Part shown: piece by piece, positions 44,649 through 50,523 of the stretch
How the letters are laid out: the number at the start of each line of letters is the position of its first letter
Numbering within the stretch: the stretch's first letter is position 1
Assembly: GCF_035917275.1 (NCBI RefSeq)
Contig: NZ_CP108508.1
Span: 868,001-932,000, forward strand
DNA: 64,000 nucleotides
Direction: 5' to 3'
From: Streptomyces sp. NBC_01237
GTDB taxonomy: Bacteria; Actinomycetota; Actinomycetes; Streptomycetales; Streptomycetaceae
Position numbers and translations under genes: made by a program
Notes under the pieces: generated by a model
Seen by the model: only the letters and a program-made list of their open reading frames with translations
Told to the model about the DNA's origin: nothing
The model's database searches: none

Positions 44649-45473
44649 ATGAACGTACTGATCTCTGTGGACATGGAAGGCATCTCGGGGATCGTGCATC
44701 CCACCGAGACCAACCCGGATCGCTACGACTACGAGCGCGGCCGGGCCCTGATGACGGCCGAGGCGAACGCCGTGATCGCCGGTGTGCTGGAGGCCGAACC
44801 CTCCGCCACGGTTCTGGTGACCGACGCACACGGGCCGTTCCGGAACCTGCTGCCGGAGGAGCTCGACCGCCGGGCCCACCTGGTCCGCGGCAAACCGCGC
44901 CCGCTGGGCATGCTCGGCGGCCTCGACGAACACACCGACGCCGTCATGCTGGTCGGCTACCACGCCCGCGCCGGTGGTGGGCCGGCCGTGCTGGCACACA
45001 CCATGAACGACGGCATCCTCGACGTACGCGTGGCCGGGCGCCCCATGGGGGAGATCGGCCTCAACGCCGCCATGGCCGGGCACCTGGGCGCGCCGGTCGT
45101 GCTGCTCAGCGGCGACGACGCCGCCTGCGCCGAATTCGGTGACCTGGTCCCCGCCGCGGTCACCGTCGCGGTCAAGCAGGCTCTCGGTCAGGCCGCCGCT
45201 GTCGCTCTGCACCCCGAGGAGGCCCGGGAGCGGCTGCGCCGGGCGGCGGCCGACGCCCTCGCCCGGAGGGCCGGGGTCTCGCCGCTCGCCCTTGCCGGAC
45301 CGCTCGATGTCGAGGTGGACCTCTACCCGCACACGGTCGATCTGGCGACGCTCGTGCCGGGCGTCTCCCGTGCCGAGGGCGGCCGGACGATCACCTTCAC
45401 CGCCGCTCACTTCGCCGACGCCTACCGACTGATCCTGCTGATCGGCCAGCTCGCGGGCATCAAACCCGCCTGA
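44649..45473 (+). CDS. M55-family metallopeptidase (D-aminopeptidase DppA-like)
   Basis: The 274-residue protein shows the DppA zinc-binding pattern: MNVLISVDMEGISGI (Asp and Glu near residues 8-10), VLVTDAHGPFRNL (Asp-His near 60-61), VGYHARAGGG (His about 105), and AVMLVG. The family cleaves D-Ala-containing dipeptides and related substrates in the cytoplasm. The nearby Dpp-type transporter is 8 kb away on the same strand and belongs to the sulfur island, so a direct link is not implied. It ends just before a strong bidirectional hairpin. Confidence 0.85.
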   Translation: MNVLISVDMEGISGIVHPTETNPDRYDYERGRALMTAEANAVIAGVLEAEPSATVLVTDAHGPFRNLLPEELDRRAHLVRGKPRPLGMLGGLDEHTDAVMLVGYHARAGGGPAVLAHTMNDGILDVRVAGRPMGEIGLNAAMAGHLGAPVVLLSGDDAACAEFGDLVPAAVTVAVKQALGQAAAVALHPEEARERLRRAAADALARRAGVSPLALAGPLDVEVDLYPHTVDLATLVPGVSRAEGGRTITFTAAHFADAYRLILLIGQLAGIKPA

Positions 45474-45604: not shown

Positions 45605-45630
45605 CGCCCGGCCTCGCGCTCATGGCCGGG

Positions 45631-46533
45631 TCAGCCCAGAAGTGCGCTCAAGGAACCGTTGGCGGTGCGCTGTTCGCCGCGCATCGCGCCACGGGCCAGA
45701 CGCACCAGTTCGTCCGGCGTGAGGCCGGTGAGCGTGCGGTGGAAATGCGCGATGAGGTCGCTCGCGGCCCCGGACAGTGCCGCGTCGTCGTTGGGGCGGG
45801 CGGGCAGTCCGTCGCCGTCCAGCAGGAGTGCTTCGACCACGGCGTACAGATGGGCGGAACCGGCCTCGCGGACCGTGAGCGAGAGGTGGGCCGAGGCGCT
45901 TCCCCCGGCCGTCTCGGCCATGTGCGCGAACCCGCGTGGTACGTAGAGGACTTCGCCCTGCCGCAGAACCACGTCCAGCAACGGCTCGCCCGGGTCGCCG
46001 TCCACACGCTCGGGCTGCCAGTTCCCGTCGGGCGGTCCCGGATACACCCGCCACCGCTTCGAGCCGTGGATCTGCACGGCCAGCACGTCGGCGTCGTCGC
46101 GGTGCACGGGACGGCCCTGTGTTCCCGGCGGGGTGAGGAAGAAGAATGCCTCCACCTGGCGTCGGAATCGCTCCGCGAGTCCGTCGGTCAGCTCCCGTAC
46201 GCCCGCGTGCCACTGGTCGACGTACCGCAGAAGGAGCGTCGCACCCTCCTCGCCGACCAGTCGTCGTACGGCCCCCGCGTCCAGGTAGCGGTCGTCGATC
46301 CCGCCCAGGATGACGCGAGGGGAGCAGTAGCTCTCGTGCGGTACGGGGCCGTCCTTGTGCACGAGGGTCGCGTAAGGGGCGGTGAGGAGTCCCGCGTCCA
46401 GGATCCGGTCCAGCTCGGCGACCGTCAGGACGTCCGGCGGAGGGGTACGGGGGCGCAGCACGGCGGGGGTGCGGCGCCACAGTGTGTGGTGAAATGCCTG
46501 CTCGTCGTCCACGTATCGTGCGAGCCAGTCCAT
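45631..46533 (-). CDS. JmjC/cupin-8 oxygenase 2 of the peptide cassette
   Basis: The 300-residue protein starts MDWLARYVDDEQAFHHTLWR. It has the JmjC iron-binding triad: His and Asp in GRPVHRDDADVLAVQIHGS (about residues 138-156) and the distal His in YVPRGFAHMAETA (about 196-208). KRWRVYPGP and the basic residues that would bind 2-oxoglutarate are also present. Such Fe(II)/2-oxoglutarate enzymes hydroxylate residues in proteins or peptides. It is a paralogue of the enzyme encoded upstream, 34 bp away, sharing the same start and the VDQWHAGVRELTDG block. It is the last gene of the cassette and probably co-transcribed with the secreted peptide gene. Confidence 0.82.
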   Translation of the reverse strand: MDWLARYVDDEQAFHHTLWRRTPAVLRPRTPPPDVLTVAELDRILDAGLLTAPYATLVHKDGPVPHESYCSPRVILGGIDDRYLDAGAVRRLVGEEGATLLLRYVDQWHAGVRELTDGLAERFRRQVEAFFFLTPPGTQGRPVHRDDADVLAVQIHGSKRWRVYPGPPDGNWQPERVDGDPGEPLLDVVLRQGEVLYVPRGFAHMAETAGGSASAHLSLTVREAGSAHLYAVVEALLLDGDGLPARPNDDAALSGAASDLIAHFHRTLTGLTPDELVRLARGAMRGEQRTANGSLSALLG

Positions 46534-46567
46534 CGTTGCCTCTTCGTTTTCCGTGCCGTCGGCCTGA

Positions 46568-47437
46568 TCAGACGGTCTGGCGGTTGCTGTACGCACGCGG
46601 CCGTGCCCGGCCGATGACTTCCTCCGGAGTGGCCGCGGCGAGCCGTGCGCGCAGATGGTCCAGGAGTCCGGCGGCGGAGCGCAGCAGGGCGTCATCGTCC
46701 AGTGGGCGGCCCGGCAGGGAGAGACCGTCCACGAGCTGTGCCAGCAGGGCGCTGCGCAGATGTTCCGCACCGGCTTCCCTGACGACCACCGTCAGATGGG
46801 CCGACGAATCGTCGCCCACGGCCGCGGCGGTGTGGGCGAATCCTCTGGGCACATAGAGCACTTCGCCCGCCCGGAGGACCGTGTCCAGCAGGGGCTCTCC
46901 CGGATCCTCCGCACGGACCGGCGCCCAGTCGCCGTCGCCCGGCCCCGCGTACACCTGCCAGTGCTTGGCACCGCTGAGCTGGATGGCCAGCAGGTCCCCG
47001 TCGTCCCGGTGCACCGGACCCCGGCGGCCGGGAAGGCTCAGGAAGTAGAACGCCTCGACGAGCCTGCCGAGCCGCTCGGCGATGCCGTCGGTGAGCTCAC
47101 GCACCGGGGGATGCCATTGGTCGACGTAGCGGAACTGCAGCGTCGCCCGCTCCTCACGGATGAGCCGGCGCACCGCCGCCCCATCGACGTATCCCTCGGC
47201 GGGTTGCCCGGTGATCACGCGCGCCGGGCAGAAACGCTCGTCGGCGATGCCGCCCTGTGCGGTGTACAGGCCGACGTACGGAACGCGCAGCAGCCCGCCG
47301 TCCAGAAGGGCGTCCACGTCCGCGCGGGTCAGCACCTCCGACGGTGGGTTCCCCGGCCGCAGGAGCACCGGCCTCTTCCGCCAGTACGAGCCCAGGAGCT
47401 GTTCCACGTCCGGTACACACCGCTCCAGCCAGTCCAT
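46568..47437 (-). CDS. JmjC/cupin-8 oxygenase 1 of the peptide cassette
   Basis: The 289-residue protein begins MDWLERCVPDVEQLLGSYWR, the usual N-terminus of cupin-like JmjC proteins (compare ribosomal oxygenases). The iron ligands are in GPVHRDDGDLLAIQLSGAKH (about residues 141-160) and YVPRGFAHTAAAV (about 198-210). VDQWHPPVRELTDG and the winged C-terminal region resemble its paralogue at 45631. It is a probable Fe(II)/2-oxoglutarate hydroxylase. GAGGAAGGA precedes ATG 47437. A perfect hairpin separates it from the peptide gene, so the enzyme is probably made at a lower level than the peptide. Confidence 0.85.
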   Translation of the reverse strand: MDWLERCVPDVEQLLGSYWRKRPVLLRPGNPPSEVLTRADVDALLDGGLLRVPYVGLYTAQGGIADERFCPARVITGQPAEGYVDGAAVRRLIREERATLQFRYVDQWHPPVRELTDGIAERLGRLVEAFYFLSLPGRRGPVHRDDGDLLAIQLSGAKHWQVYAGPGDGDWAPVRAEDPGEPLLDTVLRAGEVLYVPRGFAHTAAAVGDDSSAHLTVVVREAGAEHLRSALLAQLVDGLSLPGRPLDDDALLRSAAGLLDHLRARLAAATPEEVIGRARPRAYSNRQTV

Positions 47438-47456
47438 CGGTCGGTCCTTCCTCGAA

Positions 47457-47488
47457 GGGACCCGCCGATGCGGACATCGGCGGGTCCC
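47457..47488 (-). terminator. Perfect hairpin between the peptide gene and the JmjC genes
   Basis: Arms 47457-47470 and 47475-47488 pair perfectly over 14 bp (GGGACCCGCCGATG and its complement) around a 4-nt loop, which on the transcript reads UCCG. It lies 42 bp after the peptide stop and 20 bp before the first JmjC start. It has no T-tract, so it is either a leaky terminator or an RNA-stabilising stem that raises the peptide level over the enzymes. Confidence 0.7.
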
Positions 47489-47529
47489 GGTCATGCGTGC
47501 GAGCCCTCGCGTGCGCGTCGGTCAGCCGG

Positions 47530-47721
47530 TCAGATGACGTCGGGGTAGCAGTCCCCGCAGCCGGCCTCGACCTTCTGGTCCGACGCCGGAGGTGCGGCGG
47601 CGTGCCCGACGGACGGTGCGAAGAGCGCACCTCCGGCGACGGCGAGCGCCGCCACGCTCAGCGCCGCGCGCTTGGAGATCTCCGTACGCTTGGACGGCTC
47701 CGCGACCTGGAAAGACGACAT
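47530..47721 (-). CDS. Secretion-leader peptide, candidate precursor of an oxygenase-modified peptide
   Basis: The 63-residue product begins MSSFQVAEPSKRTEISKR. A hydrophobic stretch (about residues 20-40: AALSVAALAVAGGALFAPSV) ends at GHAAA, a good Sec signal-peptidase site. The remaining 20 or so residues finish with KVEAGCGDCYPDVI, with two Cys spaced CxxC, two Asp and a Tyr. AAGGAG lies 5 bases before ATG 47721; a GTG two codons earlier is too close to the ribosome-binding site. Two JmjC oxygenase genes follow on the same strand behind a strong hairpin. I do not recognise the peptide family. A plain small secreted protein unrelated to the oxygenases is the main alternative. Confidence 0.6.
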   Translation of the reverse strand: MSSFQVAEPSKRTEISKRAALSVAALAVAGGALFAPSVGHAAAPPASDQKVEAGCGDCYPDVI

Positions 47722-48045
47722 GACCACTCCTTTCCCCGGCTGCGATGTACGCCGCGGCCGGGTGTTCGATCGGCCCCGGTTCCGAGGCCGGGACTGATCT
47801 TGCTTCGGGCCACGCGCACGGGAGAAGCGGCACTGACGTGTTCCATACGCCGCTTACGGATCCCTGACGCGCCCTCACCTGCGCGGAAACCCTGGCGGGT
47901 GACGTTCGGAGCGATCGGAGCGGGCCCGGCTCCGGACATCCGCGCTCTCCTTGAGTGGCAGAGTGGCAAAGCGGCAGAACGTCGGCAGATGGTGCGGGCG
48001 AGGACGGCCCGCCACCCGGTCGTGGGGCACCCCGCCGACGGGCTG
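47722..48045. other. Intergenic region upstream of the peptide cassette
   Basis: This 324-bp gap lies between the sulfatase stop and the peptide start on the minus strand. It must hold the promoter of the peptide cassette and perhaps a terminator for the sulfatase operon. No clear -35/-10 pair, hairpin or gene was recognised. Confidence 0.5.
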
Positions 48046-49521
48046 TCAGTGTGCGGACCGATGGCCGAACGCCACTCCCTTCCACGGCACTTGGGACGGG
48101 AACGACTCCGCACGGCGCTGACCGGACGGGCGCGGGGCCGCCCGTCCGATCTCGGGTTCCGTGTGCTCGACCCGCTCCAGCCACTCCAGCAGCTCCTGGC
48201 GCAACCCGTCGGCGACCTCGCGGTGCGAGGCGAGCCCGGCGAGGTTGTCCAGCTCGTACGGATCGGCTGCCAGGTCGTACAGTTCGCTCTCCTCGTAGCG
48301 GTCCGCGTCCGGGTCGTTCCACGCGTCCGCCCCCGGTGCCTCCACCACGTACTTCCACCGGGAGGTGCGTACCGCACGGCCCACCCGGTCCTCGCTGATC
48401 TGGATGAACACGGAGCCGGGACGACCGGGGTCACGGCCCCCGCCGGTCAGCGGCAGCAGGGACCGCCCCTGTACGCCGTCCGGTACCGCGATGCCCGCGG
48501 CCGCCAGCAGCGTGGGCATCAGGTCCACCGTGCCGACCGGCTCCCGGACGAGCCCGCCTCCGGTGAAGCCGGGCCCGGTGAGGGCGAGCGGCACGCGAAC
48601 GGACGCCTCGTGCGCCGAGCGTTTGTACTCGCTGTTACGGGTACGGAAGTGGGAGCCGTGATCCGCCGTCCAGGCCAGCACCGTGCCGTCCTCGGTGCCC
48701 AGGCTCCGCAGCGCGTCGCGCAGCCGGCCCACCCCCTCGTCGACCCGCTTGATCTGGCCGAGGTAGCCGCCCAGATGGCGATGGGCCCCACCCTGCGCGG
48801 CACCCGGTGCGAGCGCGGCGAGGTCCGGCGGCAGCCAGGTGCCCTCGTAGCGCTCGCGGTAGCCCGCGGGGGCCGGGTAGTCGTCGGCCGGGTTCTGGTG
48901 GTGCGGCTCCAGCAGGGACAGGAAGAGCAGGTACGGACGGTCGTGGTGGTCGGCCACGAACCGGATCGCCGCGTCGATCAGCGCGTCGGAGCGGTAGCCG
49001 GGGAGCCGGACCGGCTCGCCCTCCTCGTCGTACACCACGGTGCGGTGGGCGTCCGAGGTGAATTCGAGCCGGTCCGAGGCGAGCCACTTCCGGTAGCCGC
49101 CCCGGCGGCCGGGCGGCACGGGGCCGTCCGGGCCGTCCTCGCCCCCCAGATGCCACTTGCCGATGTAGCCGGTCGTGTACCCGGCCGCGGCGAACTCCCC
49201 GGCGAGCGTCGGGATGTCCTGCGGAAGCGGCAGCCCGTTGCGGAACACGCCCGTCGCCGTGGGGTAGCGGCCGGTCTGCAGGGCCGAACGGGCCGGGGCG
49301 CAGACCGGGTTGGAGGTGATCGCCTGCTCGAACAGGGTGCCCTCGCGGGCGATCCGGTCGAATTCGGGGGTCACCCCGGCCCGGTTGCCGTGGGCGCCGG
49401 TCGTGTCCCATCGCTGCTGGTCGGTGAGGACCACGATCACCTGGGGAGGCGCCCCGGTGGGCGGCACCGGGGCGCCTCCCACCGGTGGGGTCGTCCCGTC
49501 GCGCGGGGCGGACCCGCTCAC
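48046..49521 (-). CDS. Cys-type sulfatase (arylsulfatase/choline-sulfatase family)
   Basis: The 491-residue protein has the alkaline-phosphatase-like sulfatase fold. It has the metal-binding start [15 protein letters not shown] (about residues 28-42), the formylglycine motif [11 protein letters not shown] (about 74-84), YIGKWHLGG (about 118-126), [13 protein letters not shown] and WTADHGSHF (about 283-291). The Cys must be converted to formylglycine by the enzyme encoded at 58065. There is no signal peptide, so sulfate esters must enter the cell first. The start overlaps the stop of the dioxygenase gene as ATGA (49518-49521), so the two are coupled. Confidence 0.9.
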
Positions 49522-50477
49522 GCTCCGGCCTTCTCGGCGGCCGGGGCCGCCGCCGAGGCGCCGGAGGCGATGCCGAAGGCGGGGTCGGGCACCTCCTCGG
49601 GGCTGATGAGGGTGGAGGAGCGCCCGTCGACACCGACCGGGACGTCACCGTCGATGGTGACGCGGCGGAGCTTGCGCTCGTGGGCGTCGGAGTCGTCCAC
49701 CCCGTAGTGCTGGGTGGCACGGTTGTCCCAGATGGCGACGTCGCCGGTCTGCCAGTGCCAGCGCACGGTGTTCTCCGGGCGCTCGATGTGCGCCTGGAAC
49801 AGGTCGAGGAGTGCACGGGAGTCGCGGCCGGTCAGTGTGCTGATGCGCTGGACGAAGTTGCCCAGGAGCAGGGTGCGTTCGCCGGTCTCGGGGTGGACGC
49901 GCACCACCGGGTGCTCGGTGAGGAACTTCGTCGAGGTGAACACCTTCCGGTACTGGGCCAGCGCCTCGGGCCGCGCCTGCGGGCGCAGCGCGGCATAGTC
50001 GTAGTCGTTGGAGTGGACCGCGCGCAGGCTGTCGGCGAGGACGCGCAGCGGCTCGGGGAGTCCGGCGTACGCCGTCGCGGTGTTCGCCCACAGGGTGTTG
50101 CCGCCGTACGGAGGGATGACGACGGCGCGCAGGATCGAGAAGGCCGGGTAGGCCGGCACGAAGGTGACGTCGGTGTGCCACTGGTTGGCCCGGCCGCCGT
50201 GATCGGAGTCGATGCCGAGCGAGTAGCGGCCGTCGGCGGACGGGACGGTGGGGTGGGCGACCGGTGTGCCGAGCAGGCGGCCGAACGCCTCGTGGCTGTC
50301 CTCGTCCAGGTGGTCCTGACCCCGGAAGAGGACGACCTTGTTGGCCAGCAGGGCGGCCCGGACGGCCGCGACGGTCTCCGGTTCGAGGTCGCCGCCGAGG
50401 CGCACGCCGGAGATGACGGCGCCGATACGGCCGCCGAGCTTCTGGACGGTGACGGTGGAGGCGGAGGTGGTCGACAT
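49518..50477 (-). CDS. TauD/AtsK-like Fe(II)/2-oxoglutarate dioxygenase (alkylsulfatase type)
   Basis: The 319-residue protein has the TauD-type facial triad: His-Asp in [15 protein letters not shown] (about residues 101-115) and the distal His in [13 protein letters not shown] (about 251-263), followed by the 2-oxoglutarate Arg in [12 protein letters not shown] (about 267-278). [10 protein letters not shown] and [13 protein letters not shown] are family blocks. In AtsK-like enzymes alkyl sulfates or sulfonates are oxidised and sulfate or sulfite released. Coupling to the sulfatase gene supports a role in organosulfur use. ATG 50477 has AAGGAA upstream. Confidence 0.87.
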
Positions 50478-50497
50478 GACGGGGTTCCTTTCGGAGG

Positions 50498-50523
50498 CCA
50501 AGATCGTCACTGATTAATCTTGG
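50498..50523. promoter_or_regulatory. Operator-like inverted repeat upstream of the dioxygenase gene
   Basis: CCAAGAT (50498-50504) and ATCTTGG (50517-50523) form a perfect 7-bp inverted repeat with a 12-bp spacer containing GATTAAT, the most AT-rich spot in the region. It starts 20 bases upstream of the dioxygenase start codon, inside the promoter or leader. It may bind a sulfur- or ROK-type regulator. Confidence 0.45.

Follow-up and report, generated by a model that had tools for sequence, protein, structure and literature searches.

NO66, MINA53 and YcfD modify ribosomal proteins, and ribosomal oxygenases (ROX) are characterized by dimerisation and a C-terminal winged-helix part. JmjC enzymes have also been reported in RiPP biosynthesis, where those found in the sources consulted act as tailoring enzymes of larger clusters. 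PbsQ (PMC12257519) and BipG (PMC12707348) are JmjC/cupin-like enzymes that hydroxylate biphenomycin-type RiPP precursors; their reported target is an ornithine made from Arg, and they serve as tailoring enzymes together with an MNIO, an arginase and a radical SAM enzyme. JmjC proteins of Pfam family PF08007 are mentioned in RiPP-like contexts in a remark on RRE-fused proteins and their bacterial homologues (PMC12710340). According to an article on bufferins (PMC12452194), a Sec signal peptide is rare in bacterial RiPP precursors; bufferin precursors carry one, and preliminary results in that article indicate that this signal contributes to recognition by the modifying complex.

In the window, i.e., the whole stretch of 64,000 nucleotides of Streptomyces DNA analysed here, a small peptide gene is followed by genes for two paralogous JmjC oxygenases, JmjC-A and JmjC-B. 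The three open reading frames of the original prediction were all found at their positions on a single strand, the minus strand, within the following features:

45609 to 47880, minus strand: cassette block common to relatives in other genomic contexts (blastn blocks)
47722 to 47880, minus strand: conserved region upstream of the peptide gene, presumed to hold its promoter and ribosome-binding site (alignable in 6 relatives)
47530 to 47721, minus strand: gene for a 63-aa precursor-like peptide (ORF call, profile searches, genome co-occurrence)
47611 to 47670, minus strand: hydrophobic signal-like segment, residues 18-37 of the peptide (pN/pS 0.44; mean identity 0.74)
47533 to 47559, minus strand: conserved C-terminal core CGDCYPDVI, residues 55-63 (pN/pS 0.33)
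47457 to 47488, minus strand: 14-bp perfect stem with a 4-nt loop and no T-run, between the peptide gene and JmjC-A (RNA fold z -2.55)
46568 to 47437, minus strand: JmjC-A, PF08007 oxygenase of 289 aa (Pfam match; A clade support 100/100)
45631 to 46533, minus strand: JmjC-B, PF08007 oxygenase of 300 aa, paralogue of JmjC-A (Pfam match; B clade 98/95, sister to A 98/89)

Like PbsQ and BipG, this cassette associates a JmjC-type Fe(II)/2-oxoglutarate enzyme with a ribosomal precursor peptide, the substrate relation being one that we infer here; judging from the published descriptions, it is set apart from them by a JmjC pair that stands alone and by a core without a conserved Arg. With bufferins and other MNIO-modified precursors, as described in the passages concerned, it shares a signal-like N-terminus in place of a leader and a Cys-containing core and, with bufferins, a precursor gene preceding the enzyme genes and presumed export by the general Sec machinery. 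Unlike bufferins in the same description, it has JmjC enzymes instead of an MNIO (DUF692) or DUF2063 partner, was found here only in Streptomycetaceae, and carries a short core at the extreme C-terminus. The remark on PF08007 proteins concerns the Pfam family of JmjC-A and JmjC-B, and the passage describes no peptide family like that of the cassette. Among the literature matches listed for JmjC or cupin RiPPs, Sec-type RiPPs and FxLD RiPPs, mostly non-subscription papers, the three-gene unit was undescribed. The cassette had been proposed as new, which holds for the unit among these matches but not for its elements, since the articles cited above already report both JmjC enzymes that act on RiPP precursors and RiPP precursors of the Sec type.

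The peptide gene starts at the ATG at 47721, preceded at 5 nt by an AGGAG sequence (about 47727-47731), which bears out the predicted ribosome-binding site. It is separated from JmjC-A by 92 bp, and JmjC-A from JmjC-B by 34 bp. Using blastn, the window matched S. atratus, DvalAA-43, G513 and ADI95-17 from about -159 to +2093..+2112 relative to the peptide ATG (the ADI95-17 block being lengthened by an internal run of N). The block common to the window and four other relatives was essentially 2.3 kb, from the presumed promoter region to the end of JmjC-B, and outside it only two short, scattered matches were observed, both to DvalAA-43. This block contains the peptide gene and the two JmjC genes and nothing else; the cassette is thus self-contained. 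Some relatives had more in common: S. atratus and ADI95-17 shared about 455 bp beyond the block, and long flanks were common to the pairs spiroverticillatus/G479, klenkii/hiroshimensis and G459/G480. The same-species strain TSRI0281 shared the downstream flank of the window and had a different upstream flank, and the blastn comparison of G509 with G554 returned no block.

The absence of a protease, also part of the original prediction, was verified for the conserved block but not for its vicinity: among the seven genes scanned by family (43.1-50.5 kb), one encodes a predicted D-aminopeptidase (Peptidase_M55, 44649-45473, plus strand). This downstream gene was rejected as a member of the cassette because it lies outside the conserved block. 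Upstream, genes for a sulfatase and a TauD-type dioxygenase (48046-50510) lie on the same strand as the cassette, with longest frames overlapping by 4 bases; these were also rejected as members, since they are outside the block and the upstream genes of TSRI0281 differ. A role in anti-phage defence was rejected, as there was no PADLOC match.

A close adjacent JmjC pair (matches of 60% or more) was present in 7 of the 392 genus genomes, and the peptide in the same 7, with E-values of 1.2e-8 or lower; outside them, the best peptide match had an E-value of 4.2e-4. Below the close pair, the next best JmjC matches were in G039 (54%, half the protein) and G023 (53%, full length), and 186 of the 392 genomes had some JmjC-B match at E 1e-5. 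A loose peptide search (E 1) gave matches in 390 of the 392, which are chance matches by E-value. In the family sample, JmjC-A (56% or more) was detected in 9 of the 249 genomes, the next genome standing at 48%, and the peptide in the same 9, with a peptide profile that was built partly from the same loci and could miss more distant peptides. Both searches scored only the best few candidates per genome (6 to 25), and the two samples overlap, the window genome and others belonging to both. The pair without the peptide was observed in 0/7 and 0/9 genomes, as was the peptide without the pair; the pair was therefore not widespread without a peptide, nor was the peptide alone in most genomes. This exclusive co-occurrence in 7/392 and 9/249 genomes agrees with the proposed cassette of three genes: peptide, JmjC-A and JmjC-B form one cassette.

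In the class sample, 2 of 296 genomes had the peptide, and both belong to the genus of the window. A scan restricted by a pattern, run over 84,980 named species genomes, revealed 8 loci, 7 of them with the peptide and its stop codon and one, that of Streptomyces sp. ISL-66, without the stop. After counting duplicates from the two routes once, the combined set comprised 20 loci plus one plasmid, and the peptide gene was directly upstream of JmjC-A and JmjC-B in all 20 loci and on the plasmid. The core motif followed by a stop was present in 20 of the 21 cassette loci (the exception being ISL-66), versus 0 of 36 loci of other JmjC relatives, a set that includes one locus, L076, without a called JmjC gene. 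The peptide profile retrieved 35 protein clusters including its own (8000 candidates scored); those with a named source were all from Streptomyces or Kitasatospora, and the named relatives were Streptomyces. Three S. atratus replicons deposited as plasmids also carry the cassette, at 86% DNA identity. Proteins related to JmjC-A at about 60% were seen on four plasmids (256-260 kb), one of which was inspected. The records seen label such peptides as hypothetical proteins.

The full sequence of the window peptide is MSSFQVAEPSKRTEISKRAALSVAALAVAGGALFAPSVGHAAAPPASDQKVEAGCGDCYPDVI. It is characterized by a charged start with KR/KR, a hydrophobic run, an Ala-rich end and a short tail finishing KVEAGCGDCYPDVI. 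The leader composition of the exported type that had been noted was thus seen, secretion itself being a prediction; the composition fits a Sec signal by eye, and the segment is conserved. Across 11 loci, pN/pS was 0.88 in the N-terminal part, 0.44 in the hydrophobic segment, 1.00 in the linker and 0.33 in the core. The hydrophobic segment and the C-terminal CxxCxPDVI are therefore constrained and the linker is free, an arrangement that corresponds to a RiPP precursor with conserved leader-like and core parts. Moreover, the distances of the peptide, JmjC-A and JmjC-B across the 11 loci correlated at 0.95-0.96. Among seven strains, the mean identity of the hydrophobic segment (0.74) was similar to that of JmjC-A (0.70). 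A control secreted-looking peptide from the same 7 strains reached 0.40 versus 0.74, with the hydrophobic segment higher in 21 out of 21 pairs, which are non-independent pairs compared over 21 residues anchored on a GG motif in one peptide and on residue number in the other.

In the core, both Cys, the Asp and the Val were invariant in an 18-row alignment. The variants observed were CxxC[YFHE]PDV[IM], CGGCPLDVI and, in two clusters, CPGPDGCFPDAI-like sequences. Tandem peptide genes were found in 4 of the 20 loci (two copies in G151, G480 and G554, three in G459). In Streptomyces sp. ISL-66 (L055, 7733-7921), the stop after DVI is lost and the frame continues; its relative on the L169 plasmid keeps the stop. 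Among the residues originally put forward as targets of oxidation, Lys was rejected because it is not conserved, and Tyr was weakened, its site being occupied by Y, F, H, E or P. Asp and Pro withstood the comparison and, given the variability of Lys and Tyr, Asp, Pro or Cys are better candidate targets. Cleavage of the C39 type after the GG of the hydrophobic segment was also considered and is disfavoured, as the plasmid copy has SG and the unit has no C39 peptidase.

Both enzymes matched Pfam JmjC_2 (PF08007) well over the cut-off (6.9e-16 and 9.8e-21), but Cupin_8 below its cut-off only, so that their original assignment as JmjC/cupin-8 paralogues is retained as JmjC (JmjC_2) paralogues with the HxD...H ligands. 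No NCBIfam family was above cut-off for the peptide, JmjC-A or JmjC-B, and there was no PF08007 match in the window genome other than these two proteins. The HRD...H motif was found in both window enzymes. Across the 20 loci, H143 and D145 were present in 40 out of 40 proteins and the third ligand, H202, in 38 out of 40, the losses affecting JmjC-A of G513a and JmjC-B of G498; the co-encoded, presumably modifying enzymes thus have intact catalytic residues, apart from one damaged enzyme in each of 2/20 loci. G513 holds two cassettes (L136 and L137), the first of which, with a JmjC-A lacking the third ligand and a JmjC-B lacking a conserved Lys, looks as if it were decaying.

Among solved structures, the nearest were NO66 and MINA53, followed by YcfD (PDB 4ccn, 2xdv and 4nub). 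These share with JmjC-A and JmjC-B the JmjC_2 catalytic domain with HxD...H; the cassette enzymes are, in contrast, shorter (289 and 300 aa), patchily distributed and linked to a peptide. The NO66/MINA match spans only profile positions 11-239 of 303 (ending at 236-239). A weaker match (2.6e-12) to YxbC, a putative asparaginyl hydroxylase (PDB 7zcc and 1vrb), covers nearly the full length (profile 13-279 of 303), a likeness drawn from the sequence match. In the phylogenetic tree, the A proteins formed one clade (100/100), as did the B proteins (98/95), and A and B were sisters (98/89). The next branch was L146, long and weakly placed (94/68), with no RiPP gene recognised at the locus, and then the trio L058, L145 and L148, joining at a fork with 100/98. 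Since A and B each form one clade and are sisters, the cassette probably spread after a single duplication. Five differences between A and B are fixed, one of them two residues after HxD, which suggests divided labour between the two enzymes.

No sigma-70-type promoter consensus was found upstream of the peptide gene. In close relatives, the stem downstream of it showed two compensated pairs (5 distinct rows), which 36 of 500 shuffles equalled. Of 15 loci tested for folding of the intergenic stretch, or of its part on the JmjC-A side, 10 had a z below -2 and the other 5 no better than -2. Leaving aside one locus that contains a run of N, the peptide gene and JmjC-A were 50 to 275 bp apart. The hairpin, which has no T-run, may make the peptide mRNA more stable or terminate a fraction of the transcripts.

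Overall, we consider it likely that the cassette encodes a RiPP-like precursor served by the two JmjC oxygenases as its sole dedicated enzymes, the C-terminal tail being oxidised in the cytoplasm before Sec export. The peptide gene would be transcribed first, from its own predicted promoter, and the hairpin 3' of it may leave the peptide mRNA in excess over that of the enzymes. JmjC-A and JmjC-B would act in the cytoplasm as Fe(II)/2-oxoglutarate oxygenases with different targets and would recognise the precursor probably through its signal-like segment and/or its C-terminus. Residues of the CxxCxPDVI tail would then be oxidised, most likely Asp, Pro or Cys. As the unit lacks a protease, transporter or immunity gene of its own, maturation must use general functions; the general Sec machinery and signal peptidase would subsequently export and cleave the precursor, in the order proposed here, to release a peptide of about 20-30 residues. 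The simplest guesses for the role of this product are metal binding through CxxC or signalling. If true, the product would represent an uncommon type of modified peptide, and a precursor with just two JmjC oxygenases would provide a minimal system that is easy to rebuild. With it one could ask how a signal sequence serves as leader, how export is kept from happening too early and how JmjC enzymes choose residues near a free C-terminus, and the cassette offers a route to finding such peptides.

A signal-like segment and a conserved C-terminus right before the stop, followed by a hairpin and the enzyme genes, are also what a regulatory nascent chain of the SecM, VemP or MifM type would present, i.e., a Sec-engaged peptide whose C-terminus stalls the ribosome and controls the JmjC genes via the hairpin. 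We regard this as highly improbable, as the two to three peptide gene copies in 4/20 loci are awkward for a cis-acting leader, the hairpin is absent or weak in some loci, and the distance to JmjC-A is variable. Moreover, the genes downstream encode JmjC proteins and not Sec or protein-localisation components, one locus has lost the stop, and two invariant Cys would better suit a product. The proximity of the enzymes to ribosomal oxygenases among solved structures would instead fit a pair modifying a cellular protein, e.g., a ribosomal protein, with the peptide as a non-substrate partner, an inhibitor or a secreted effector. Such a role appears very unlikely in view of the patchy presence of the pair, the linkage to a peptide in every locus examined, the RiPP surroundings of several JmjC relatives and the partial coverage of the NO66/MINA match.

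Concerning the product, a modified peptide could act as a pheromone read by adjoining LuxR-type regulators, which is compatible with a RiPP-like precursor oxidised by the JmjC pair. A LuxR-type regulator homologue was present in 12 of the 21 loci, and a degenerate JmjC-like companion in 10 of the 21; at least 9 loci encode a second small peptide of secreted appearance. However, the LuxR module was absent from the fetched stretch in 9 of the 21 loci, the window included, and a module of this kind lies elsewhere in the window genome with no JmjC cassette; we therefore hold this role to be rather unlikely.

The surroundings of the 36 loci of other JmjC relatives bear on the RiPP-like reading. Family searches confirmed LanB/LanC, YcaO/TfuA or C39-peptidase genes in 7 of them: YcaO and TfuA genes adjoin the JmjC gene in L058 and L145, LanB was found in L062 and L073 and LanC in L062, YcaO/TfuA in L077, and C39-peptidase transporters in L061 and L074. 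The annotation of one plasmid locus includes YcaO and a TOMM leader-binding protein. The remaining loci were assessed by eye, so that the RiPP context of most of the 36 was judged by eye or not seen, and several, e.g., L068-L071, showed no RiPP sign. In the trio L058, L145 and L148, there was no convincing candidate precursor, and a search of four genomes of this group, run without a positive control, found no cassette-family peptide.

Two arrangements were observed repeatedly among these relatives: a single JmjC gene with short precursor-like peptides that have an LDDIVGG leader and end in NCI, CVI or ACI (L061, L063, L149 and L151), and adjacent JmjC pairs with a small peptide ending in INEA (L077 and L079-L082). 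Candidate precursors were picked by leader pattern and by eye, and 21 of the 36 loci yielded such candidates: the last residue is Ile in 14, Leu in 1, Ala in 5 (the INEA type) and Glu in 1 (L078). In L074 and L075, a second, equally possible small peptide ends in Glu, and in L059 a candidate 6.7 kb away ends in Tyr. As a control, 30 canonical FxLD loci without JmjC (about 3.1 kb each) were used, of which 14 precursors were unreadable by the pattern and 0 of the 16 readable ones ended in Ile. All seven FxLD-like precursors beside JmjC genes ended in Ile; these were classed by eye, two having been tested in NCBIfam, where the sole matching one was below cut-off. The JmjC-linked and control FxLD sets are different subfamilies, and shared descent could explain part of the contrast. 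A C-terminal Ile is nonetheless a possible clue to site choice by the JmjC enzymes. More tentatively, and with somewhat more doubt than confidence, we suggest a RiPP class with JmjC enzymes only, in which each paralogue would have its own target and oxidise the last residues, the Sec signal would be the leader, and the enzyme clade would read the free C-terminal Ile across otherwise unrelated precursor types.

Finally, among loci L055-L057, L088, L089, L137, L139-L144 and L169, the LuxR-type regulator observed beside the cassette (12 of the 21 loci) is of about 330 aa and the companion (10 of the 21) of 130-175 aa. Five companions, once aligned, resembled a JmjC_2 domain without the iron ligands (hhalign 98.3%). 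The second small, secreted-looking peptide of at least 9 loci carried a DTSWG-like motif. In the window genome itself, locus L131 (contig C2) has a LuxR-type protein, a 161-aa companion-like protein and two small GNDSGWG peptides, with no JmjC cassette, and near other LuxR homologues of this genome there are likewise small peptides, with a Trp close to the end.
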